A stretch of 64,000 bases of DNA, taken from positions 2,976,001-3,040,000 of the forward strand of contig NZ_CP043329.1 of NCBI RefSeq assembly GCF_008195825.1. The letters run 5' to 3'. Under the pieces are notes generated by a model. That model saw only the letters and a program-made list of their open reading frames with translations, was not told the origin of the DNA and did no database searches. Below are positions 1 to 15,637 of the stretch, piece after piece; positions within the stretch are counted from its first letter, which is position 1; each line of letters begins with the position of its first letter. The translations under genes were made by a program, and so were the position numbers. Source of the DNA: Pedobacter aquae. GTDB lineage: Bacteria; Bacteroidota; Bacteroidia; Sphingobacteriales; Sphingobacteriaceae.

Positions 1-3000
1 ACTTGTAGTATTCCATTTACATAACTGATGTTATAGTTTTGAGCCGAAGCACCTGATACCGTTATTGGGTAATTGCCTAATGGACTATTTAATACTGCCG
101 TAGTGCTAAAGCTAGGCTGAATTATCAATACTGTTGCATCTTCTCCAGCTATAAAACCATTATAATTTGCGGTAAACACTGGGTTTGCTGTACCCACAAA
201 CTTTTGTTTATCTGCTGCTGTAATGATTAATGCTTTAGCTGTGATGTTAGCTGTGGTACTTGCAGTCGTGTTTACTGTATAATTTCCTGCATCTGTACCG
301 CTGATGCTAATACCTGATACTGATACTGCTTTACCTGTGCCTACATTTCTATCGATAAACGTGGCTGTAGTATAAGCTGCTGTTAGTATATCACCCGATA
401 TTCTATCATCAGATAATGTAACGGTTGCTGATGTATTACCATTATACTCTTTGTTAACACCCGTTGCTGTTACCAATAAAGATTTTGCGGTGATATTAGC
501 TGTAAAACCTGTGGTAGGTTGTGATAAGGTATAATTAGCCGCTGCTGTTCCGCCTAAAGTATAATTACTGATAATGGTGATGGCTTTTCCTGTCCCTACA
601 TTTTTATCATTGAAACTTGCTGTCGCTGTTCCGCCGATGGTAACATTATCACTACCTACTATTCCAGTAAGGCTAGCCGTTCCGGTAATGGTTGCAGCAG
701 TATTTCTATCGTATACTTTATTTGCAATGCTTATACCTGTTACAGTTAAAGCTTTCGGATTTACCGTACTGCTTATGGTAGCTATCTTAACACTATCTGC
801 ATTTAGACTGCTTAGTGCGATGTTACCGCTGTAATTTCCTGCTGGCGTGTTAGCTGCTAGTCTGATATAAACAGGGGTACTATTTATGGTGCCTGTAGTT
901 CCTACTGTTAGGGTAGAAGTAAAGGTTGTATTATCTGCGGAAACCTCAAAACCTGTAGGAGGAGTTACTTTAATCCCTGCTTGCATACTTGCACCTGAAA
1001 CATTGAAACTAATAGCACTTGAAGGAGTGCCATAAGTGCTACTCATGGCCGTTAGCGTTCCGCTATTTGAAATAACTGGTGGGTCTATATTTTTGAAAAT
1101 GGACACGAAATTTGCCCCACTGTTGGCAACAGCAAAATCTAGTCTGCCGTCTCCATCTAAATCACCAATAGCTACATTTTGAGGGCGTCTGCCTGTTGTA
1201 AAGTTCACTACCGGTGCAAGAGAAGATAAATTTATATCTCCTGGCGTTGAAGTATTTCTGTAAACTAATAGTGCATTGTTGTTATAACTTACAGAAGCAA
1301 TATCAGGTTTACCGTTACCATCTAAATCACCAATTGCAATTCCATACTGTGTATTTATATTATTGAAGTTTATCTTGGTTGCAAAATTACTGCTTGTAAT
1401 TGCACCATTGATATCGTTCTTTAAAACAGTCATGTATGAGTCTGCATAGAATCCTACCACGATATCAGCTTTACCATCGCTATCTATATCGCCCATGCTC
1501 ACTGCAAATGGATTTCCGCTTAAAGAAATATTTACTGCTGAGGCAAAGCTTCCGCTATTAATACTTCCTACGGTGCTGGTATTTTTAAGAATAGATAAAG
1601 TTTTAGAGCTATATATAACAACAGCTAAGTCTGATTTACCATCATTATCTAAATCTCCTACAGCTAACCCTTGTGGTTGGAAACCTACGCCAAAATCTAC
1701 CCTAGGGGCAAAAGAAATTACAGAACCAGCGCTTGTATTTCCGAAAACCGAAACTGAATTACTAGAAAGGTTAAGCACAGTAATGTCTAACTTTCCATCT
1801 AAATCTATATCACTAATTTTTACATTTATTGGATTTAAGCCAGTAGCTATAGTACCAACAGATGTAAAACTTGTAGTACTAAAATTACCGCTTGTTGTAG
1901 TATTTCTAAATATTTGCATATTGTTACTACCTACAACAACTAAATCCAATTTACCATCACCATCTAAATCTCCTTTAGCAATACCGGTTGAAAACCCACC
2001 ATAACTAACTGGTATATCAACCTTGGTATCAAAACCACCATTTCCATTATTTCTAAATAATGAAACAAAACTAGCTCCGTTATTAGAAGCTGCCATATCT
2101 AATTTTCCGTCTCCGTCAAAGTCGCCTAAGGTTACATCAAATGTTCCATTACCAGCCGTATAATCTACTTTAGCTGCAAAATCTCCGGTGCCTAGCTTAG
2201 CTTTTGAAGGGCTGAAAATTGGATTGAAATTAAGAGGACTTTCTGCGGCTAATTTAGTTTGGGTATTTAATAAAGTAATGGCGCCATAAGTAGCACCAGA
2301 CGGAACTGTTACTGTTAAACTTGTTGTTGTTGCCCCATTTACTATTCCTTTGGTTGCACCAAAGAAAACTATATTATTTGCAGATGTAGTACTAAAGTTC
2401 GTCCCTGTAATCGTTATCACATCTCCCGGCTTTGCACTTTCTGGGCTAAAACTGGTGATTGTAGGTGGAGCTGTAAAAATCACTAACTCTTTATTAGCGC
2501 CCAATGAACTTGATGCTCCTGGTGCTGCTAAAGTTAAATTAGCATCTACATTGGTAATTCCTTTTATAGTACCGTTATTTAAACTTAAAGCTGAGGTAGA
2601 AGTATAATCCAAATCTGTACTTACATCCCCGGCTTGTACGGTATAATTAAAAGTTAAGGTATCCGTACCGCTACCAGAGATATAATTAGCCCATTGGTCT
2701 ACTGTACCTGTTTCTAAACGAAGCCTAGGGTTACCTGTAACATTCACTATTTTATCAAATGCAACTTTTATTGGAATGATATCACCTATCTGATAAGTAC
2801 CATTAGCTGATGATGAGCTTACTAGGTTTACAATAGGAGCAATATCAGCATTACGTAAAACAGAGATAGAATTTGATGCGGTATTGCTATTGGATACCAC
2901 TAAATCAAGGCGACCATCGCCATCAAAATCTGTTAAAGCTACCGAAATAGGATTAGTGCCAGTTGTGTGAATCGTCTTGTCAAAAATCAAGAATGCACTA

Positions 3001-6000
3001 GTGCTATTATTCTTAAAAATGTTAATCGAGCTAGCATTGATGTTAGCTACTGCTAAATCTACTTTGCCATCTCCATCTACATCACCCATGGTAAGTTCTC
3101 TCGGACTATCCATAGCAAAATAAGCTTGACCATCAGCAAAACTTAGGATATTATTTGTTCCTGTGTTTTTATAAAAGGAAACGGTATTTGAGTTGGTATT
3201 AGAAACTGCGATATCGGCCTTACCATCTTGGTCTAAATCGCCAATCGCTACAGATAGCGGGAAAGACTGTGTATCATAGCTATTATCTAAAACAAAACTT
3301 AGTGCATTAACCGAGCTTGTATTGCGATACAAGGCTAACTTACTGGCACCGAAATTGGTTATAGCTATATCTAATTTGCCATCTCCGTTTACATCTCCTA
3401 AAGCCAATGCAGAAGGATTGCTACCTGCACCCGTACTCAATGTATTTGCTGAAGCAAAAGTAATTGCTCCAACATTACTAGTATTTCTAAATATAGAAAA
3501 GCTATTATTCCCAAACTCATTGATAACTAAATCAAGTTTACCATCACCATCAAAATCTCCAATCTTTATTTGGCCTGGGTTACTTTGTGTTATATAATCT
3601 TGTTTAGCTTCAAAGCTGATAGTCCCGCTGGATCCATTATTTCTTAAGGTAGAAATGCTATTTGATGATGAATTGACAATAGCTAAATCTAGCTTACCAT
3701 CACCATCAAAATCTCCAGACTGAACAGAAACTGGTGTAGTACCGGTGACAAAATCTATCTTATTAGCAAAGCTGATGCTTGTACCGTTTCCTGTGTTTCT
3801 GAAAATTGAAACTGTATTGTCTGCATTATTAATTACAGCTACATCGGGATATCCATCGCCATCAAAATCTCCAGTAGTTAAAGCTTGTGGCCTATTGCCG
3901 GTAGCAAAATCCACCTTAGGTTCAAAATCTGAATTAGTGAAAGTAAGTTTAGATGGACTGTAAATTGGGTTGAAACTTGATGGGCTTTGTGCTAACAAAT
4001 TAGAACCTGTATTTAACACGCTTGTTGGTGCGTAAGTAGCACCTGTTGGTACGGTTACCGTTAAACTGGTTGCTGTTGCCGCTGTAACGGTTGCTTTTGT
4101 TGCGCCAAAGTATACTATATTATTCGCTGCTGTAGTGTTAAAGCCTGTTCCGGTTATGGTTACTACATCGCCCGGTTTGGCACTTAATGGTGTAAATGAA
4201 GTAATGGTTGGAGACGGAATCAATATCACTAAATTTTTATTTGCACCTAATGAACCAGCCGCCCCCGTTGTTGGTAGCATAAGTATAGCATCTACAGTGG
4301 TTGTTACACTTTTTATGGTGCCATCATTTAAAGCTAAAGCTGAGCTAGAGATATAATCTAAATCAGCACTTATATCTCCATTTTGTACAGTATAGTTGAA
4401 AGTTAAAGTATTGGTTCCGGTACCGGATGCATAGTTGATAATACGGTCTGTAGCACCTGTTTCTAGCGTTAATTGCGGTGTTCCTGTAACATCTACAGCT
4501 TCATTAAAAGTGATGGTAATAGGAATATTTTCTCCTAGGTAATAACTACCATCTGCTTTTGTAGAGGTAACATTGGTAATGCTTGGAGGTATTTCAGTAT
4601 TTCGTAAAACAGATACTCCATTTGACTGCGAATTAGCAGTTGCAATATCTGGTTTCCCATCGCCATCCAAGTCTGCAATACTTACAGATAGTGGAGTTGA
4701 ACCTACATTAACATTAACCCCTGTAGCTAAACTTGAAGTGCTTATACTACCCACCGAGCTAGTATTTCTGAAAATTGATACTGTACTAGAATTCGCATTC
4801 ATAGCAGCAATATCGGGCTTACCATCTCCATCTATATCACCAATAGCTAGGGCGTATGGGCCATTACCCACACCAGTTGCAAAATCAACTTTTGTAGCAA
4901 AAGAACTAGATGATATATTTCCTGTTGAATGAGTATTTTGAAATACTGATAAACTATTGTTATTTCTATTTGCAACTATTAATTCGGGTTTCCCATCTAA
5001 ATCAACATCTGTAATTGAAACAGCCCATGGTCCAAGTTCTGTATTAAAATCAACTTTAGTTGCAAATGAACTACTCGATATATTGCCACTTACATGTATA
5101 TTTTGGAAAACAGAAACTGTGTTAATTGAAGCATTGGCTGTGGCAATATCTAGCTTCCCATCGCCATCTATATCTCCAACTGTAATTAACTGAGGGGAAG
5201 CACCTAAACCAATAGCAAAATCAACTTTGGCAGCAAATGAACTAGTTGTTATAGAGCCACTAGCTGCTGTATTTTGTAATACAGAAAAAGTATTATGGCC
5301 AGGGTTAGCTGTTGCTATGTCTGGCTTTCCGTCTCTATTAAAATCTCCAACAGCTACTGATGTTGGCTGCAGACCTGTAGCAAAGTCAACTTTGGCAGCA
5401 AATGAAGATGTTGTGATGCTTCCAGTAGTACTGGTATTACGAAATACCGAAACACTATGGCCTCCATAATTTGCTACAACAATATCTAACTTACCATCCC
5501 CATCAACGTCTGTAATTGAAACTGCAATTGGAAAATTCCCTGTTGTAAAATCAACTTTTGTGGCAAATGAACCAGAAGTGATACTTCCACTAGAACTTGT
5601 ATTATGGAATACAGATAGGCTATTAGCTCCGTAGTTAACAACTGCCATATCTAGCTTACCATCCCCATCTAAATCTCCATTAGCAATAGAATAAGTTGCA
5701 CTTCCAGCTGAAAAATCTTGCCTTGGTGAAAAATCTAATAGTGAAATCCCTGTTTTAGATGGACTAAAAGTTGGTATAAAACTTTCTCTGCTAGATGCAG
5801 CTAAACTCGTTACAGAATTTAAAACTTTAATAGGTCCAAACATAGCACCACTAGGTACTGTTACTGTTAAACTTGAGGCTGTTGCTGCGGTTACTAGTGC
5901 TTTTGTTGCACCAAAGAATACTACATTATTGGTTGCTGTGGTGTTAAAGTTAGTACCTGTTATGGTAATTACATCGCCTGGTTTGGCGCTTAAAGGACTA

Positions 6001-6914
6001 AAGCTAATAATTACAGGTATAGACCTTACCAAATGCGTTGCACCTGCATTATAGTCCGCAGTAAATCCGTTGGTGCCATTTCCATTGCCTAAATCATCAG
6101 TAAGATTAGTACTATTCTTTAAATCTAATCTTAATGATCCTAAACCTGAAATAGCATTTACAGTAACATCAACAGAACTTCCTGTAGTAGCACTTACACT
6201 ACTGATATTCCCACTAGCCGTACCTGTTGAAGTAAGTATAAAGTCATCAACACTGATATTATTAGCGTTCTCATCAAAAGTAACACGATAAATTACAGAG
6301 CTAGCACTTTCTTGCGGTGAAGCTAGTAATGAAATACTTGTTACTTCGGGTGCTGATAAGTCAACAGCAGGACCTACCGTAAAACCATTAAAAAGGGCTC
6401 TCATTCCGGGAGATGTAATCACCACCTTATCTACATTAGAAAAGATAGCATCGGGTAATTCATTTGGTCCATAAGCAATGGTTCCTAATGGAGTAAGGCC
6501 TAAGTTAACAAGCCCAGTTGACATTGAATTTCTAAAGCCTCGAACTGTAATTGATGCCCCAAAAGTAAACCCAACTTCAGCCACTCTAAAACCATTAAAA
6601 TCAAAATTACCTGATGATGATGAAATGACTAAACCATCAAATCCAGTTTGATAATTACTGGGTCCCAATCCCTCAAAAACCCCAAAACTATTGAAAGAAT
6701 AATAAAATATATCTCCACCTGTAGAAACGCCCAAACCATTACTGGCGAAAATGTTAAATGTAAATCCAGAAATATCAGTAGAACCTCCTTCGCCGTCTAC
6801 AGCCTCTGTTCCAAGATTGGTACCACTTGCGACTGAGAAATTTAAAGTTCCAGTTTGCGCATACAGGCAATTGCTTGTGAGTATAATAAAAATGAAGAGT
6901 AGCAATTTTTTCAT
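1..6914 (-). CDS. Giant secreted IPT/FG-GAP repeat protein (3' end beyond window)
   Basis: Open minus-strand frame of about 2,304 codons from ATG at 6914 to the window edge with no stop; the C-terminus is missing. It begins with a signal peptide ending in LYAQ, then a unique domain (about residues 20-190) and a bacterial Ig-like segment. Three super-units follow: an IPT/TIG domain ([20 protein letters not shown]), seven FG-GAP/VCBS repeats with calcium-loop motifs such as [10 protein letters not shown], and an Ig-like domain. IPT domains lie near 5.8-6.0, 4.0-4.2 and 2.25-2.48 kb. After the third set come another Ig-like domain (about 1080-750), YDG-type repeats and an MBG-like domain. Each set of seven probably folds as an integrin-like propeller. 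It is presumably cell-surface or secreted by T9SS, but the sorting domain would lie outside the window. The ligand is unknown. The next gene upstream is a paralogue 93 bp away. Confidence 0.9.
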
Positions 6915-7007
6915 AAAATTATATTGAGGGTAAATTATTTAATTCTTATATCTTGTTTCTTTATGATTGCAAAGACTATACTTTTGATAAAATTTGATTT
7001 CAACTTT

Positions 7008-10000
7008 TTACTGTTTAATAATTTGCTTAGTTGTTATTTTTCCTGTTCCGGTTAACCTGATATGGTAAAATCCTGTGCTAAGTTTATTGATATCTAAACT
7101 GATGCTGTTTTCTTGCTTTTGAATAGTTTGACTCATTAATATCTTACCAGTTAGGTCTATGACTTCTAATTTCTGGTAAACATCAGCCTCAAAACTTAAA
7201 TTAATTAAACTGCTTGCTGGGTTAGGGTAAACTGTTAACTCTTTTGAACCAAGCGTTACATTTACAGCTCTTACACCTAAATCTGTTTGTTTACCATTAT
7301 CATCATATTGTATTAATTGATAATAATTTGAACCACTAGCAGGTCTAGTGTCTGTATAATCATACTGTGCTTGTTGTGTTGAGTTTCCTGAACCGTTTAC
7401 TTTAGCTATGGAACTAAAATTTTTACCATCTGTTGATTTTAAAATTTCAAAATAGCTGTTATTCGTTTCTGATGCTGTTAGCCAATTTAACTGCACTGTT
7501 CCATTAGTTTGAAGTTTGGCTTGGTAACTTATTAATGATACTGGTAAAGGAACTATATCTGCATTCCTAATAACTGAAACATTATCAGAGAATTCATTTG
7601 CAACTATTAAGTCGGGTTTGGTGTCTCCATCTATATCACCTACAATGACGTTTCTAGTTACGAGACCCGCCGTAATTTGAACTACAGAACCGAAGTTAAT
7701 GCTACCAATGCTAGAAGTGTTTGGAAAAACATTCACAAAGCTATTATTAGCAGTCAACAAATCTGGTTTTCCATCGCTATCTATATCGCCTAAAGCAAAA
7801 GAATCATGAGAACCTAATAAAAAATCAACCTTTGCGGCAAAGTTGATGTTTCCGGGTGTAGAGGTATTGAGAAAACATGAAAATCTTGAATCAAAACCAT
7901 AAGTTACCGCCACATCAAGTTTTGTATCTCCATCCAAATCACCAATTACCATAGAAACATCATATTCTCTGGTACGAATAAAAACTCCATTTTCAAAACT
8001 TACCACCCCATTTATAGATGTATTACGATACACGGTAAATCCCGTATCTCCTCCTAATACCAAGTCTAATAGGTTATCTCCGTCTATATCTGCCGCGGTA
8101 ATATTATAGGTGTAAAGCTGCCCAACAATAGTTATAGCGCTACTAAAACTTATGCTTCCGCTTGAGGATGAGTTAGGATATACCAAAATCTCCCCATCTT
8201 TGGCAACTGCAATATCAGGTTTACCATCGCTATTAAAATCCCCAATGGTAAACCAAGAATAAAAGCTAGCGTTAACAACCAAAAATTCTTTTGCAGCAAA
8301 GCTAATGTTGCCGCTGGTTGATGTATTTCTAAATATTGAAATATTGGCACTAGCTGAATTAGATACAATTACATCGGGCTTCCCATCTCCATCTATATCG
8401 CTAATAATTACATTAATAGGAAGAACAGTGCTAAGATCAATTTTGTCAGCAAAACTGCTTGATGAAATACTTCCATTAGTTGCAGTGTTTCTTAGAACTG
8501 ATATTGTATTGCCAACATAATTTGCAACCACCAAATCGGCTTTGCCGTCTCCATCTAAATCACCACTTGCCGTAAATATAGGGCTATCGCCAGCTGCAAA
8601 GTCTACTTTATCATCGGTAGTGAATACACCTGCTTTGCTAGGACTAAAAAGTGGATGGAACTTTTTTAAACTTTGGGCCGCTAAAGTTGTACCTGTATTT
8701 AAAACATTAAGATAATCGTAAGTTGCTCCCACTGGCACAGTAACCGTTAAACTAGTTGCTGTTGCCGCTGTAACAGTTGCTCTGGTAGCTCCAAAAAACA
8801 CCACATTATTTGTAGTTGTGGTATTAAAGTTAGTGCCTGTTATGGTTACTGCATCTCCTGGTTTGGCGTTTAACGGGGAGAAACTGGTAATAGTTGGAGG
8901 TAGGTCCGTATTTCTCAATATAGAAATTGTATTACTCAGATAATGAGATGTAACCAAATCAGGTTTATGATCACCATCTAAATCTGCGATGACTACAGAA
9001 TGAGGATTATTTCCAATGCTCAAGCTTACCGAAGAGCTAAAACTTAACATTCCGCTACTACTGGTATTACGTAACAATGAAAATGTATTTGACCCCAAAA
9101 CAGGCACTATAAAGTCAGGCCTACTGTCCCCGTCTAAATCACCTATAGAGAAATATTCATGAATATTACCAGTTGTAACATCAATTTTAGGATTAAGATT
9201 AAAGTTACCGTTACTGCTGGCATTAAGAAAGACAGAAATATTACTCGAGTTACGATTGAGTATTGCTAGATCAGACTTTCCGTCTCCATCAAAGTCATCA
9301 ATAGCAACCGCAATTGGTCTAGTTCCGGCAGTAAAATCAACTTTTGGATTAAAGTTAACATTACCAATACTACTTGCGTTCAGGAATACAGAAAAATTAT
9401 TGGAGCCAAAATTAGTAACAGCTAAATCAAGCTTTCCGTCGGCATTTAAGTCTCCAATAGCAATAAATCTTGAGGAAGATCCTGCAACAACATCTACTTT
9501 AGGTGCAAAACTAAGACTACCAGTAGTACTGGTGTTACGAAGTATGGAAATATCGCCAGATGATTCGTTAACAACTGCTAAATCAGGCTTTCCGTCTCCA
9601 TCTAAATCACCAATAGATGCTATACGAGGACTACTGCCCGTTGTAAAATCTATTTTATTATCAAATGAACCTGCATCTAACAAACCAGTTGTGCTTATAT
9701 TACGAAATACCGAAATACTAGATGAACCATAGTTGGTAACTACTAAATCAGGTTTACCATCTCCATCTAAATCTCTTATCGCTACTGCAAATGGTTCATT
9801 TTCTGTTGCAAAATCTACCTTAGTTGCAAAACTGGCTGATGTGATATTTCCAATATTACTGATATTGTGATATACAGAAACCGTATTTGAATTCTTGTTA
9901 GCAACCGCCAAATCAGATTTTCCATCTCCATCCAAATCGCTAACTGCTATAAGATGAGGAGCATTACCTGCCGCTAAAACTTGCTCTGCCGCAAAATCTG

Positions 10001-10388
10001 CCGTTGTAATATTTGTTTTTTCAGGACTATAAATCGGATTAAAACTACCTAAGCTTTGTGTAGCTAAACCAGTGGCTGTATTTAATAAAGTTATGGGTGC
10101 AAAAGTTGCTCCAGTGGGTACCGTTACTATTAAGCTCGTAGTAGTTGCCGCTGTTACAGCTGCCTTTGTTGCTCCAAAGAAAACCACGTTATTTGTAGTT
10201 GTAGTATTGAAATTTGTCCCAGTAATTGTAACTGCATCGCCTGGTTTGGCGCTTAATGGATTAAACGAAGTAATACTAGGCACTTGTGCGCTAACATTAA
10301 TGGAAGCAAATATTAAAGCGAAAAGTGAGATTAAAACTTTATTTACTTTGAATTTAAGTAAAGATTTACAAGTAAAAATTGTAATCAT
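7008..10388 (-). CDS. Secreted IPT/FG-GAP repeat protein with T9SS sorting domain
   Basis: 1,126 residues. The N-terminus carries a signal peptide (ends NVSAQ). Two super-units follow, each an IPT/TIG domain (starting [13 protein letters not shown] and ITSFSPLNAKPGD) and seven FG-GAP/VCBS repeats with DxDGDGxxD calcium-loop motifs. The last part, about 180 residues, is an Ig/fibronectin-like domain (VQLNWLTASETNN) and a typical type IX secretion C-terminal domain (VYPNPASS, ending TGKITTKQIIKQ). The protein should therefore cross the outer membrane by T9SS and be attached to the surface or released. It is a paralogue of the larger downstream protein; the IPT and repeat units are near-interchangeable. 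The ligand or target is not predictable. The upstream 396 bp holds repeated GCCYAAAAR motifs and then an AraC-family gene. Confidence 0.93.
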   Translation of the reverse strand: MITIFTCKSLLKFKVNKVLISLFALIFASINVSAQVPSITSFNPLSAKPGDAVTITGTNFNTTTTNNVVFFGATKAAVTAATTTSLIVTVPTGATFAPITLLNTATGLATQSLGSFNPIYSPEKTNITTADFAAEQVLAAGNAPHLIAVSDLDGDGKSDLAVANKNSNTVSVYHNISNIGNITSASFATKVDFATENEPFAVAIRDLDGDGKPDLVVTNYGSSSISVFRNISTTGLLDAGSFDNKIDFTTGSSPRIASIGDLDGDGKPDLAVVNESSGDISILRNTSTTGSLSFAPKVDVVAGSSSRFIAIGDLNADGKLDLAVTNFGSNNFSVFLNASSIGNVNFNPKVDFTAGTRPIAVAIDDFDGDGKSDLAILNRNSSNISVFLNASSNGNFNLNPKIDVTTGNIHEYFSIGDLDGDSRPDFIVPVLGSNTFSLLRNTSSSGMLSFSSSVSLSIGNNPHSVVIADLDGDHKPDLVTSHYLSNTISILRNTDLPPTITSFSPLNAKPGDAVTITGTNFNTTTTNNVVFFGATRATVTAATATSLTVTVPVGATYDYLNVLNTGTTLAAQSLKKFHPLFSPSKAGVFTTDDKVDFAAGDSPIFTASGDLDGDGKADLVVANYVGNTISVLRNTATNGSISSSSFADKIDLSTVLPINVIISDIDGDGKPDVIVSNSASANISIFRNTSTSGNISFAAKEFLVVNASFYSWFTIGDFNSDGKPDIAVAKDGEILVYPNSSSSGSISFSSAITIVGQLYTYNITAADIDGDNLLDLVLGGDTGFTVYRNTSINGVVSFENGVFIRTREYDVSMVIGDLDGDTKLDVAVTYGFDSRFSCFLNTSTPGNINFAAKVDFLLGSHDSFALGDIDSDGKPDLLTANNSFVNVFPNTSSIGSINFGSVVQITAGLVTRNVIVGDIDGDTKPDLIVANEFSDNVSVIRNADIVPLPVSLISYQAKLQTNGTVQLNWLTASETNNSYFEILKSTDGKNFSSIAKVNGSGNSTQQAQYDYTDTRPASGSNYYQLIQYDDNGKQTDLGVRAVNVTLGSKELTVYPNPASSLINLSFEADVYQKLEVIDLTGKILMSQTIQKQENSISLDINKLSTGFYHIRLTGTGKITTKQIIKQ

Positions 10389-10784: not shown

Positions 10785-11843
10785 CTATACGCTTGAAGGA
10801 TTAGTATGATGATAGCTTTTAAAAGCTAAAGTAAATTTACTGGCATTGTTATAACCCATGGTAAAGGCTAAATCTTTAACTTTTATCTTATCTTCTTTCA
10901 ATAATTTCATCGCTAAATCCATTTGTTTAGCCCTAAACCATTTTAAAGTACTTATCCTAAACCACTGCTTAAATAAGGTTTTAACTTTTGTAGGTGAGGT
11001 ATTCGTATAATTTGCTAAAAAACTAATGCCAGGAAAATCTTTCAACAAATTGTTCTCTAAATAATCGATGATTTTAATCATGATTAATTTATCTTCTTTA
11101 GAAAAATTAATATCTGTTAAATCTTTGGTTATACCATCAAAAAATTCTCCTAATAGACTTAATGATCTTGACTTAAATAAAAATTTAGCTGATTCTCCTT
11201 GACTGATGGACTTAATTCCTAAAAACAATTGTTCAATTTTATATTGGGCATCAACTACCGGATTTTTAATAAATGGGTTGTACTTTAATTCTGAACTAAA
11301 TAAAACTTTAAGTGGATGGTTATCATCGAGTTTAGATATAGAAAAATTTCTCTCTAACCAATGTTCATCAAAAGAAAAGCAAATGATAAGATTGCTAGAA
11401 TCTTTATAATGATAAGCATTGAGTTGTTCGCCAGGATGATAAAGTGTCCAAATTTTATCTATCATCGTATGACCATTTAAATTTCCCTTTTTATCATTTT
11501 TATCGCTGTAGCTGATGTATGATAAATTATAGAAGCCCTTGGTAACCACCTGATCTTTGTTGATGAAAGCTAAATTTGTTTTGTAATGACAATCTGAAAT
11601 CATTACCCACAATCCTTCCTCAATTTCAAAATAATATAAGGCACCCTTTAGAAATAATGTATTGGTTTTTAGTACTTGTTCATTGGGGTAATGATGCATA
11701 AAAGGTAACGCTTTTACAGATTCTACCATTAATTTAGGATGCGTAAATTGGTAAGGGAACTCAAAAAATCCATTATTATACTTAAATGCTTTAGCTAGAA
11801 TTTTCTTTTTCCAGTGGTTTACTATTTCAAGTATATTTTCCAA
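10785..11843 (-). CDS. AraC-family transcriptional regulator
   Basis: 352 residues. The C-terminal ~100 residues form the AraC double helix-turn-helix: LKDFPGISFLANYTNTSPTKVKTLFK is the first helix-turn-helix region and VKDLAFTMGYNNASKFTLAF the second with its classic GY/F-x2 pattern. The N-terminal ~240 residues are a sensing domain I cannot assign; they include many aromatic residues and no membrane segment. The gene lies on the same strand as, and just upstream of, the two FG-GAP repeat genes, so it may control them. Effector unknown. The C-terminus ends soon after the second helix-turn-helix, slightly short for the family. Confidence 0.85.
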   Translation of the reverse strand: MENILEIVNHWKKKILAKAFKYNNGFFEFPYQFTHPKLMVESVKALPFMHHYPNEQVLKTNTLFLKGALYYFEIEEGLWVMISDCHYKTNLAFINKDQVVTKGFYNLSYISYSDKNDKKGNLNGHTMIDKIWTLYHPGEQLNAYHYKDSSNLIICFSFDEHWLERNFSISKLDDNHPLKVLFSSELKYNPFIKNPVVDAQYKIEQLFLGIKSISQGESAKFLFKSRSLSLLGEFFDGITKDLTDINFSKEDKLIMIKIIDYLENNLLKDFPGISFLANYTNTSPTKVKTLFKQWFRISTLKWFRAKQMDLAMKLLKEDKIKVKDLAFTMGYNNASKFTLAFKSYHHTNPSSV

Positions 11844-12190: not shown

Positions 12191-15100
12191 CTAAAAATAA
12201 GCCCTCACCTGCAAGCCTCCGGTATGAATAGTTCTTACTTCATTAGATTTTCTTCCTTCGTAGGTGAGATTAAGTTGTATGCCATTAGAAATGGTTCTTT
12301 GGAAACCTGCCGACCAGGTAAGGTTGCTACCCGGCTGTAAGCCATCTAATAATTCGTAAGCTACGGGTGTATTGTTATTTCCTTCAAACTTGTTGTTGAT
12401 GAGATTGAGTTGCGCCGTAAAAGTTCCTTTTTTAAGTAGATTATATCTTACCTCAGAACCCAAACGCAGGTTTAAAGTTTCTTCGCCACCAAAGGCACTA
12501 CCGTTGCTTTGCTTTCTTAGGCCCGAGTTTAGGGTGATTTTAAAATCGGTAGTAAACTGGTAGCCAAACTCCGGTTTAAACTCATAAAAACTAATGGCAT
12601 AATTACGCTCTGCAAAAAGTTCTGATGTAAAATCTTTAGCCCCGTTTTTAAACTCGATACTAAAATTACTCTTTCTAATAAAGTTCCAACGCAGTCTTAA
12701 ACCTTGTTCTTGCTGGTTACGACTATCAAAACCATTGGTTAGCAAAATCTTACTGGCTGTATTTTGGATATTGATATCGATGCCCCAAACAGCATTTAAG
12801 CGATTATAAAATAAGGTGTTCCTGATAAAAGAGTTTAAAGAAACCAAGTTTTGCGCATCAATATTGGTTTGGAAAGGATTAAATAAAATATTACCATCGC
12901 CAGCTAAAACTTTCTTATCTATCCTTAAAGCAGATATAGAAGAAAACTTAGCCATCAGTTTAGAAATGCCTTCTTTTTTCTTGAAGATACTTGCAGGGTT
13001 AAGCCTTAAAGTTTGGTTGATGCTGGTGAAATTAGACCTGATAAACTCGTTATTAGGCCTAAAAATACGGATGTAACGGGCTTGGTCTGGGAAGCGAGAA
13101 ATCTCAAATTCGTTTAACTCTTTAATACCATTGCTGTTATAATCATTCCAAGCGTAAATACCCTGCCCAGGCTGTACTTCTAAATAAATAAATTCTCTTC
13201 GGGGTTCTTGCCCTGTACCTAGCTCATAAAAAGTATTCAGGTTTAAAAAGCCTTTAAAAGCATTCAAGTTATAATCTACCCTGCCTAAAAGCGTTTCCTC
13301 GTCTCGGTTTAAGCTATCTAATTTCAGGTAATTGATGGTACGGTAACTGGTATTTATGGTTAAGGTAGATTTCCCTTTTTTATTGAGCTCTAGTTTACCA
13401 GTAAAAGTATTGGCTTTGCTAAAAGGCGTAAGTTGGCTGCCATCGGGCATATCATCAAAACGGGTAATATAACCTAGTTGAAAGCCTGTTTTGCTATTGG
13501 ACAAAGAGCGAATAAAAAAATCGTACTCTCTAAAATTGAAAGATTGTAAAGTTAATTGCTTGCTAATGCTGTTATAGGTTTTGTTAAGCTCTTCTTCATA
13601 ACGGGTACCTGTTTCAAAGCTTTTAAAAGCTTTGGTTAATATGAGTTTTTGCTTAAAAAAATCGCCTTCATCTAAACCAACTTCAGACTGCAAAAGACTG
13701 GCATCATAACTAAATAGATATTTCTTGTAAGCAAATCTGGAGTTTACAGCTTGTTGTATAGCACTGTAATTGGCTCCTCTGGTAAAGCTAGATATTTGAT
13801 ATTTCAATTGCTTGGCATCGGTTTTAAACAAACCTAAAGAAAGGGTGGTCCAATGCTCATTTGCTTGTTCTAAATTGAGGCCTCTAAAATTAAAATCGCG
13901 GTCAAATTCTACTGGGCGATATCTTTCTAAAGGTTTAAATTGCTGGTTCACGTACTCGTAGCTAATTTGGGTGTTTAACTTTAGTCCGGTAGAATCATTC
14001 CCGGCTAAACGGTTTTGCTGACTTAAAACTACTTTGTAAGCCAAGCCCTTATTATCTGCATTTTGCAAATCAGAAAACAGGTTTACATCGTTATTACTCA
14101 TCCCAACCTCGGTAAATAAACGTGTTTTTTTTGCGATTTGATAATCAGCGTTAAGCGTTAACAATTGCTGCTTTTTGGGTGTAATTAATAGGGTAACAGG
14201 TTCAAAATCTCCTTGCGGGATATTGTTAATAGGCGCTACAAATACATAAACCCTACCGTTGGCAGTACTAGCAGCATCAACCCGATAGTTACCCCGGTTT
14301 GCCCCCACAAAAGAAAAGCCTACGCGGTATTTTGCCAATTGCGGATTGGTAGAATAAACATAAACTTGGTTAAAGCCCAAAGTATCTAATCGGCGGTATA
14401 AAATCTCGTTCTCATTAAATGTAACCGAATCTATATTAGGAAATAATGCCTGATTGATATTATTACCAATACCGCTTAAAAATTGCTGCTGCTCTTGACT
14501 TAAATCTTGTAAAAAGGGGCGGTTAGGATTGTCTTGTTCTGAGTATAAGTTGAAGCCAATTTTTAGTTTTTCTGATTTAAAATCCTGATTAACATAGTAT
14601 AAACTTCTGCCAAAAACCTTATCAGAATATTCAAACTCTACCACAATACGGGTAAAACGGGTAATTAACCTTTTGGTAGTAAAAGTAAGCTCTGAGGTGT
14701 TATAATCAACAACATAATCGTTATCCTGCCCTCTCAACAGCAATTGCCCATCTATAAAAACACGCTCTGTACCAGATAAAATCACAATAAATTGTTCGCC
14801 ATTATTCCCGGTTAAACGGTAAGGGCCTTGGTTGCCTTCTATACCATCAAACTGGTTACGGGCCGAGCGACCTTTGGCCACCGCACCAGCTACCTGCGTA
14901 TTAAAAAGCTGTCCCTTTTTATTTTTATAGCTGTTTGATACATAAGCACCTTGCGTACGTTTAAAATAATTCATGAAATAGCTATCGGGTTTACGCAACT
15001 CGTAATCGCCAGCAATTAAGGTAGTTTCTTTACGCTTTAGCTGGATAAAAACCCTATCAAAATCATTAATCTGTTGGGTATTTCCTTCTGGTTGTATGGG

Positions 15101-15637
15101 TAAATTATCATCAGAAATGGCGGCAGAAAACTCTATTTCATTATTGAGTTTACCAGCCAACTGCAATACCATATTAGAGTTTACAGATAAATCTTGATTG
15201 TTACCAAAACCTATACTGCGGGAAATGCTTCCGCTTTTTTCTATTCCATCAAAATTAAAAAGGGTATTGTCTTCTTGCTTTGGGCGGTAAATAAATGGAT
15301 TGTTATTGATAACCGCTTCTTCTATTAAACTTGGGTTTTTACGAAAGCTTTTTTGCGTTAACAAAAGCGGAAAAGTACGGTAACTGATGGTAACAGAATC
15401 TACAGCTGGCTTCTGCTTCCAAATGAGTAAAGCATTTGGATAATCTATTTTATAAGTGCTGCTATCTATCAATTGCTCATGAAAAACTTTGAGCGTATTA
15501 GGCAGAATGCTTAGTGTATCAATAAAAATAGTATCGGCTACAGCTATTTTTTTGGATTGAAAATTACTCTTGAATTGGGCAAAACTATGCTCAGCAGTTA
15601 AAAGCAATATAAAGCCGATGAGTAGTTTCTTAATCAT
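12191..15637 (-). CDS. Large predicted outer-membrane beta-barrel protein
   Basis: 1,148 residues with signal peptide (ends EHSFAQ). The N-terminal third contains segments such as GSISRSIGFGNNQDLSVNS and QPEGNTQQINDFDRVFIQ. I recall such signatures in large Bacteroidota outer-membrane proteins related to the T9SS translocon SprA, but this protein is far shorter than SprA. The rest is dense alternating beta-strand sequence with aromatic girdles and ends in QVRAYF, a typical barrel terminus with final Phe. A Ca-like loop (YNSNGIKELNEFE) precedes the barrel. Its ATG overlaps the stop of the upstream histidine kinase by 4 bp (ATGA), so the two are translationally coupled. Transport or structural role is unknown. 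No TonB plug is evident. Confidence 0.8.
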   Translation of the reverse strand: MIKKLLIGFILLLTAEHSFAQFKSNFQSKKIAVADTIFIDTLSILPNTLKVFHEQLIDSSTYKIDYPNALLIWKQKPAVDSVTISYRTFPLLLTQKSFRKNPSLIEEAVINNNPFIYRPKQEDNTLFNFDGIEKSGSISRSIGFGNNQDLSVNSNMVLQLAGKLNNEIEFSAAISDDNLPIQPEGNTQQINDFDRVFIQLKRKETTLIAGDYELRKPDSYFMNYFKRTQGAYVSNSYKNKKGQLFNTQVAGAVAKGRSARNQFDGIEGNQGPYRLTGNNGEQFIVILSGTERVFIDGQLLLRGQDNDYVVDYNTSELTFTTKRLITRFTRIVVEFEYSDKVFGRSLYYVNQDFKSEKLKIGFNLYSEQDNPNRPFLQDLSQEQQQFLSGIGNNINQALFPNIDSVTFNENEILYRRLDTLGFNQVYVYSTNPQLAKYRVGFSFVGANRGNYRVDAASTANGRVYVFVAPINNIPQGDFEPVTLLITPKKQQLLTLNADYQIAKKTRLFTEVGMSNNDVNLFSDLQNADNKGLAYKVVLSQQNRLAGNDSTGLKLNTQISYEYVNQQFKPLERYRPVEFDRDFNFRGLNLEQANEHWTTLSLGLFKTDAKQLKYQISSFTRGANYSAIQQAVNSRFAYKKYLFSYDASLLQSEVGLDEGDFFKQKLILTKAFKSFETGTRYEEELNKTYNSISKQLTLQSFNFREYDFFIRSLSNSKTGFQLGYITRFDDMPDGSQLTPFSKANTFTGKLELNKKGKSTLTINTSYRTINYLKLDSLNRDEETLLGRVDYNLNAFKGFLNLNTFYELGTGQEPRREFIYLEVQPGQGIYAWNDYNSNGIKELNEFEISRFPDQARYIRIFRPNNEFIRSNFTSINQTLRLNPASIFKKKEGISKLMAKFSSISALRIDKKVLAGDGNILFNPFQTNIDAQNLVSLNSFIRNTLFYNRLNAVWGIDINIQNTASKILLTNGFDSRNQQEQGLRLRWNFIRKSNFSIEFKNGAKDFTSELFAERNYAISFYEFKPEFGYQFTTDFKITLNSGLRKQSNGSAFGGEETLNLRLGSEVRYNLLKKGTFTAQLNLINNKFEGNNNTPVAYELLDGLQPGSNLTWSAGFQRTISNGIQLNLTYEGRKSNEVRTIHTGGLQVRAYF

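Follow-up and report, generated by a model that had tools for sequence, protein, structure and literature searches.

Two adjacent minus-strand genes, A and B, at the start of a 64,000-nucleotide stretch of the Pedobacter aquae genome (hereafter the window) encode long series of FG-GAP repeats, which raises the question of whether the repeats are organized in whole propeller modules, how the number of repeats per module is kept and what such arrays do. Translation of the two genes gave 35 DxDxDG (FG-GAP/VCBS) motifs, grouped into three blocks of seven in gene A and two blocks of seven in gene B, with a blade-to-blade spacing of 50–57 aa within blocks. Independent blade and IPT HMMs returned the same 5 × 7 layout, and because all 35 motifs fall in it, chance grouping of the repeats was rejected. 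All five blocks thereby show the seven repeats with a putative Ca-binding DxDxDG loop that characterize the FG-GAP family. Every block is preceded by an IPT/TIG domain (Pfam PF01833; three stretches in A, two in B), and the five blocks end, in order, in RNTE, RNAD, KNID, RNTD and RNAD. FG-GAP_3, FG-GAP and TIG were matched in both genes, with PF13517 scoring 435.7 and 294.9 bits for the two proteins (cut-off 26.9) and PF01839 matched as well. Exactly seven repeats per block, an IPT/TIG domain ahead of each and similar RNTE/RNAD/KNID-like block ends had all been claimed in the initial annotation, which proposed HMMER searches as a check, and each of these claims held. A Pfam match to TcdB_toxin_midN was considered as an indication of a toxin and rejected: it covers ~31 residues of FG-GAP repeat without an individually significant stretch of its own, and is therefore a repeat cross-match.

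The layout needed correction in two respects. Gene A runs past the window edge (part inside the window 3..6914, minus strand; whole gene at 2974845–2982914 of the genome, 2689 aa) and encodes, in order, a signal peptide, an N-terminal region, three IPT + 7-blade units, two YDG domains, MBG_2, a cadherin-like stretch and a type IX secretion system (T9SS) type B tail, as assigned from the sequence, Pfam and tail models. The N-terminal region (aa 22–297; 6024..6851, minus) is without a Pfam match, and a relative, G011, has an IPT + propeller unit in its place. Motif counts and HMMs delimit units A1 (aa 298–780; 4575..6023), A2 (aa 901–1362; 2829..4214) and A3 (aa 1482–1946; 1077..2471), all on the minus strand. 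The units are not strictly contiguous because a ~115-aa linker domain intervenes twice, between block 1 and IPT 2 (4215..4559, minus; a weak Pfam resemblance to Big_12, E 0.0095, below the Big_12 cut-off) and between block 2 and IPT 3 (2472..2813, minus; seen directly in the sequence). The YDG and MBG_2 domains matched by Pfam occupy 6..1000 on the minus strand, both ends being approximate, and are followed beyond the window by the cadherin-like stretch and the tail.

Gene B (7008..10388, minus; 1126 aa) encodes units B1 (aa 35–498; 8895..10286) and B2 (aa 496–946; 7551..8903), both supported by motif count, HMMs and 28 strands in the structure model, then a beta-sandwich region (aa 951–1045; 7254..7538), probably FN3-like to judge by the secondary structure of the model, and a type A sorting domain (Por_Secre_tail; 7011..7232, from Pfam and TIGR04183), all on the minus strand. 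A promoter scan of the spacer separating genes A and B gave nothing above chance. The gene immediately upstream of gene B, likewise on the minus strand, codes for an AraC-type regulator (HTH_18; 10785–11843) that might control both genes. Further along, a gene at 12191–15637 (minus) encodes a 1148-aa signal-peptide protein with no Pfam match at E ≤ 0.01 and overlaps the upstream gene for a 1233-aa histidine kinase by a few bases.

We then assessed the fold of single units, a check set beforehand. An AlphaFold model of unit A1, built from 98 aligned units, had a pLDDT of 96.0 and a pTM of 0.94 and showed a 7-strand IPT domain followed by 28 strands, four per blade, predicted to form a closed ring of seven four-stranded blades. 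VIA-align matched the unit to integrin alphaIIb (Z 33.2, rmsd 2.4, 330 residues), and the ring (model ~94–480) to integrin alpha heads over its whole extent (Z 32–33, rmsd 2.4–2.8, ~330 residues), although the latter tie with other seven-bladed propellers as fold matches. By sequence, the unit profile found CRTAC1 and integrins alphaIIb and alphaV. The model of whole gene B contained two IPT + 28-strand propellers, the beta-sandwich and the tail in an uncertain domain arrangement (pTM 0.49), with a Z of about 33 between its first ring and integrins. The earlier proposal that the locus is an array of whole seven-bladed propeller modules thus agrees with both models, in which the units are predicted to be an IPT domain plus a closed, integrin-type seven-bladed beta-propeller.

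Constancy of the blade number was assessed on blocks from the window, from its relatives and from 74 named loci; a few records occur in both sources of loci. Seven blades were found in about 193 of 195 IPT-preceded blocks that were neither cut off nor interrupted, 192 of them by HMM and one, in L112, by eye (8 by HMM). In L110, 14 blades follow one IPT, which is twice seven and was taken as two rings; at L110:4086-8942, two rings' worth of blades stand without an IPT in between. L084 has at least 8 blades in a block cut by the contig end, and the block in L130 is broken by an in-frame stop. Against search bias for full-length units we used an IPT-only query, blind to blade number: all 28 complete blocks had seven blades, and two loci with bare TIG repeats were also returned. 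Unit length ranged from 440 to 491 aa. With nearly all blocks holding seven, a random repeat tail is ruled out, and repeat counts did not vary between close relatives, the observation that would have spoken against the modular reading. In a control set of FG-GAP blocks without IPT from the same class, 16 of 22 ORFs also had seven blades (two of the 16 look near-identical), the remainder having 14, about 28, 5–6, 8 or 12, some of them truncated at contig ends. This rules out the IPT domain as the specific cause of seven, and since blocks without IPT mostly hold seven blades or multiples, the number belongs to the propeller family rather than to the locus. For the same reason, a constant seven does not on its own argue for unit duplication, contrary to what had been supposed; evidence for whole-unit duplication and loss came instead from relatives, DNA self-matches and the grouping of units.

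Units per ORF varied from 1 to 9 across relatives, the nearest named ones being Pedobacter glucosidilyticus DSM 23534 and UBA7667, a MAG filed under the same species. The locus comprises 3+2+2 units in relative G009, where gene B is 97% identical to that of the window and a further gene of two units, M, separates A from B, and 5+2 units in G011, with a five-unit gene A and a gene B 88% identical. Window DNA at 6910–7300 matches the G009 gene M tail and spacer at 98% and above ~7450 matches G009 gene B at 100%, the tails of M and B being nearly identical between ~7300 and ~7450. By these alignments, gene B of the window is chimeric, combining the middle (M) and last genes of G009, with a recombination tract at 6910..7450 (no strand assigned) spanning the A/B spacer and the gene B tail. 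The outgroup G011 keeps the spacer behind gene B (93/93 identical to that of G009), and the M signal peptide begins its gene A. The simplest account, based on one outgroup, places M behind B in the common ancestor and has the window lineage losing M by a crossover between gene tails, while the simplest account of G011 would be a merger of M-type and A-type sequence into one gene. The absence of M from the window could conceivably be an assembly error, but this would need a jump between tails that are 87% alike.

Unit bodies and IPT stretches also appear to have been exchanged. Unit A5 of G011 sits at the place of window unit A3 with a blade identity of only 31–54%, compared to 75–98% in the remaining orthologous pairs, so that this unit acquired other blades yet still counts seven. 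The flanks of this unit (locus L041), unlike its blades, are orthologous to those of A3, and the unit body has been replaced. In orthologous units, synonymous difference was 0.456 for IPT versus 0.16–0.24 for blades, and orthologous IPTs were about as different as paralogous ones; the simplest reading would be exchange of IPT stretches between units. In other loci, tandem DNA self-alignments were offset by whole units (one, two or three). Of 128 units, 45 grouped with a unit of their own ORF, compared to 3.1 after shuffling. The five window units are only 45–54% identical to one another, which speaks against a recent duplication common to all of them. In the window's genome, two more FG-GAP proteins (L056 and L057, at 742 kb and 1502 kb) have few, weak repeats and no such IPT unit. 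Elsewhere, an ORF at L101:4202-22003, at least 5934 aa long, carries nine IPT-propeller units, behind which a ~228-bp repeat is arrayed in tandem.

A competing origin of the constant seven is that single blades were amplified independently time and again, closing at seven on every occasion, without duplication of whole units. Blades inside one unit have a mean identity of 53.8%, as high as the 54.2% between same-index blades in different units of the ORF; in some units it reaches 80%, and continuous amplification is documented for propellers (PMC9218822). We nevertheless consider this origin improbable, as same-index blades within an ORF are more alike than different-index blades (54.2% vs. 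50.4%; permutation p 0.001 for the window units), long DNA self-matches span whole units and sets of units, and close relatives show unit-by-unit orthology. Blade similarity within a unit often equals that to blades of other units, so blade-level amplification also occurred in the past, and duplication and loss of whole units remains the preferred reading for the arrays.

Export of both proteins to the surface by the T9SS is well supported by their tails and by the neighborhood of gene A. The gene A tail is of type B (CHU_C/TIGR04131; 81 bits, cut-off 27, and 64.2 bits, cut-off 35), and a PorP/SprF gene lies immediately downstream (TIGR03519, 166 bits, cut-off 90.55), the features of a type B substrate with its cognate PorP/SprF; the gene B tail has those of a type A substrate (TIGR04183, 44.1 bits, cut-off 23), and the genome encodes the SprA translocon. 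PorP-like proteins hold type B substrates, and porP-like genes are usually directly downstream of them (PMC9143113; PMC12618676). Among 69 unit-bearing ORFs with a complete end, single-sequence searches recognized 35 type A and 13 type B tails.

Across 1218 blades, the most variable columns fell in loops 4-1 and 2-3, and conservation was strongest in the nearly invariant Dx[DN]xDG calcium loop. In integrins, the face formed by loops 4-1 and 2-3 is the ligand-binding face. VCBS-type propellers typically recognize carbohydrates and also mediate protein interactions (PMC9218822). Together these observations favor multivalent adhesion. The ratio dN/dS was 0.35 in upper-face loops and 0.22 in the rest of the blade, and because the loop value is under 1, loop variability may be mere tolerance.

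We therefore propose, with a probability of about 0.6 for the explanation as a whole, that genes A and B code for secreted surface proteins that repeat one module, an Ig-like IPT/TIG domain followed by one calcium-binding, integrin-type seven-bladed propeller. The proteins would leave the cell by type IX secretion, gene B by its type A tail and gene A by its type B tail, with the PorP/SprF partner next door holding the gene A protein at the outer surface. Homologous recombination between similar IPT stretches and gene tails would add, remove, fuse and swap units while the blade number per ring stays fixed; since a propeller closes on seven blades, whole-unit changes would leave a foldable protein. 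Glycans or other surface ligands are the most likely targets of the face carrying the variable 4-1 and 2-3 loops; with several heads in a row, binding would become multivalent adhesion, which we take as the probable function. Calcium binding, surface location, the type of ligand and ring closure as the cause of the constancy are presumed here.

The main rival to adhesion gives the proteins a role as surface scaffolds or spacers in the matrix, in which propellers are stable beads that lengthen a stalk and have no specific ligands. Units are regular (440–491 aa), their number varies freely and conservation peaks in a structural element, the calcium loop, as a scaffold would have it; however, variability is far higher in loops 4-1 and 2-3 than elsewhere, which fits a recognition face, and ligand-binding integrins are among the solved relatives, and we regard a pure scaffold as rather unlikely. 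That the propellers are carbohydrate-active (lyase-like) catalytic domains and not binding domains is suggested by sequence or fold matches that include rhamnogalacturonan lyases and aldos-2-ulose dehydratase, but in sequence the lyases match over short stretches located on the calcium loop, and the sole catalytic family above its Pfam cut-off, a lactonase beta-propeller, exceeds it by 0.7 bits without an individually significant stretch, which leaves an enzymatic role very improbable.

The literature searched yielded no description of IPT-propeller arrays or their recombination, and no paper on FG-GAP together with T9SS, in a search thin on subscription journals. The initial annotation had likewise known of no such five-unit locus, yet five is not exceptional, given up to nine units per ORF. 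The fold is ordinary and the modular reading sound; the array architecture is mildly new, with clear evolutionary dynamics. More tentatively, the arrays may be widespread modular surface receptors of Bacteroidota and Ignavibacteria in which the closed IPT-propeller unit is the unit of evolution, the IPT DNA acting as a recombination patch that lets cells vary the number and set of binding heads with rings intact. They offer a clean natural case in which the folding unit is the recombination unit, blade number being frozen as propeller number varies, and the orthologous and paralogous rings at hand can be used to test propeller closure as a constraint on repeat evolution and to study how surface binding repertoires change.

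Among known systems, the arrays share with integrin alpha N-terminal propellers the predicted whole-ring fold (Z about 33), the Ca loop and seven blades, but identity is about 14–17%, the window units have a Ca motif in every blade, Pfam found no integrin alpha leg, transmembrane helix or beta partner domains in either protein, and both proteins end in T9SS sorting domains. With SprB-type T9SS type B adhesins and SprF they share a large repetitive protein with a type B tail and an adjacent PorP/SprF gene, whereas the repeats here are IPT + propeller units. Bacterial seven-bladed FG-GAP propellers, sometimes two in tandem, were described in 2011 (Chouhan et al. 2011, PMC3192720) and are alike in their seven FG-GAP repeats, each with a Ca-binding motif, and in tandem copies; that study covers one or two propellers and leaves TIG unmentioned, whereas IPT + propeller arrays of 1 to 9, T9SS tails and unit recombination are features here. 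The VCBS/FG-GAP supercluster (Pereira and Lupas 2021, 2022; PMC8023676, PMC9218822) shares DxDxDG blades and ongoing amplification. Its repetitive VCBS propellers, however, drift in blade number between near relatives (3, 4, 6, 9), whereas the rings described here stay at seven and it is the number of whole units that changes.
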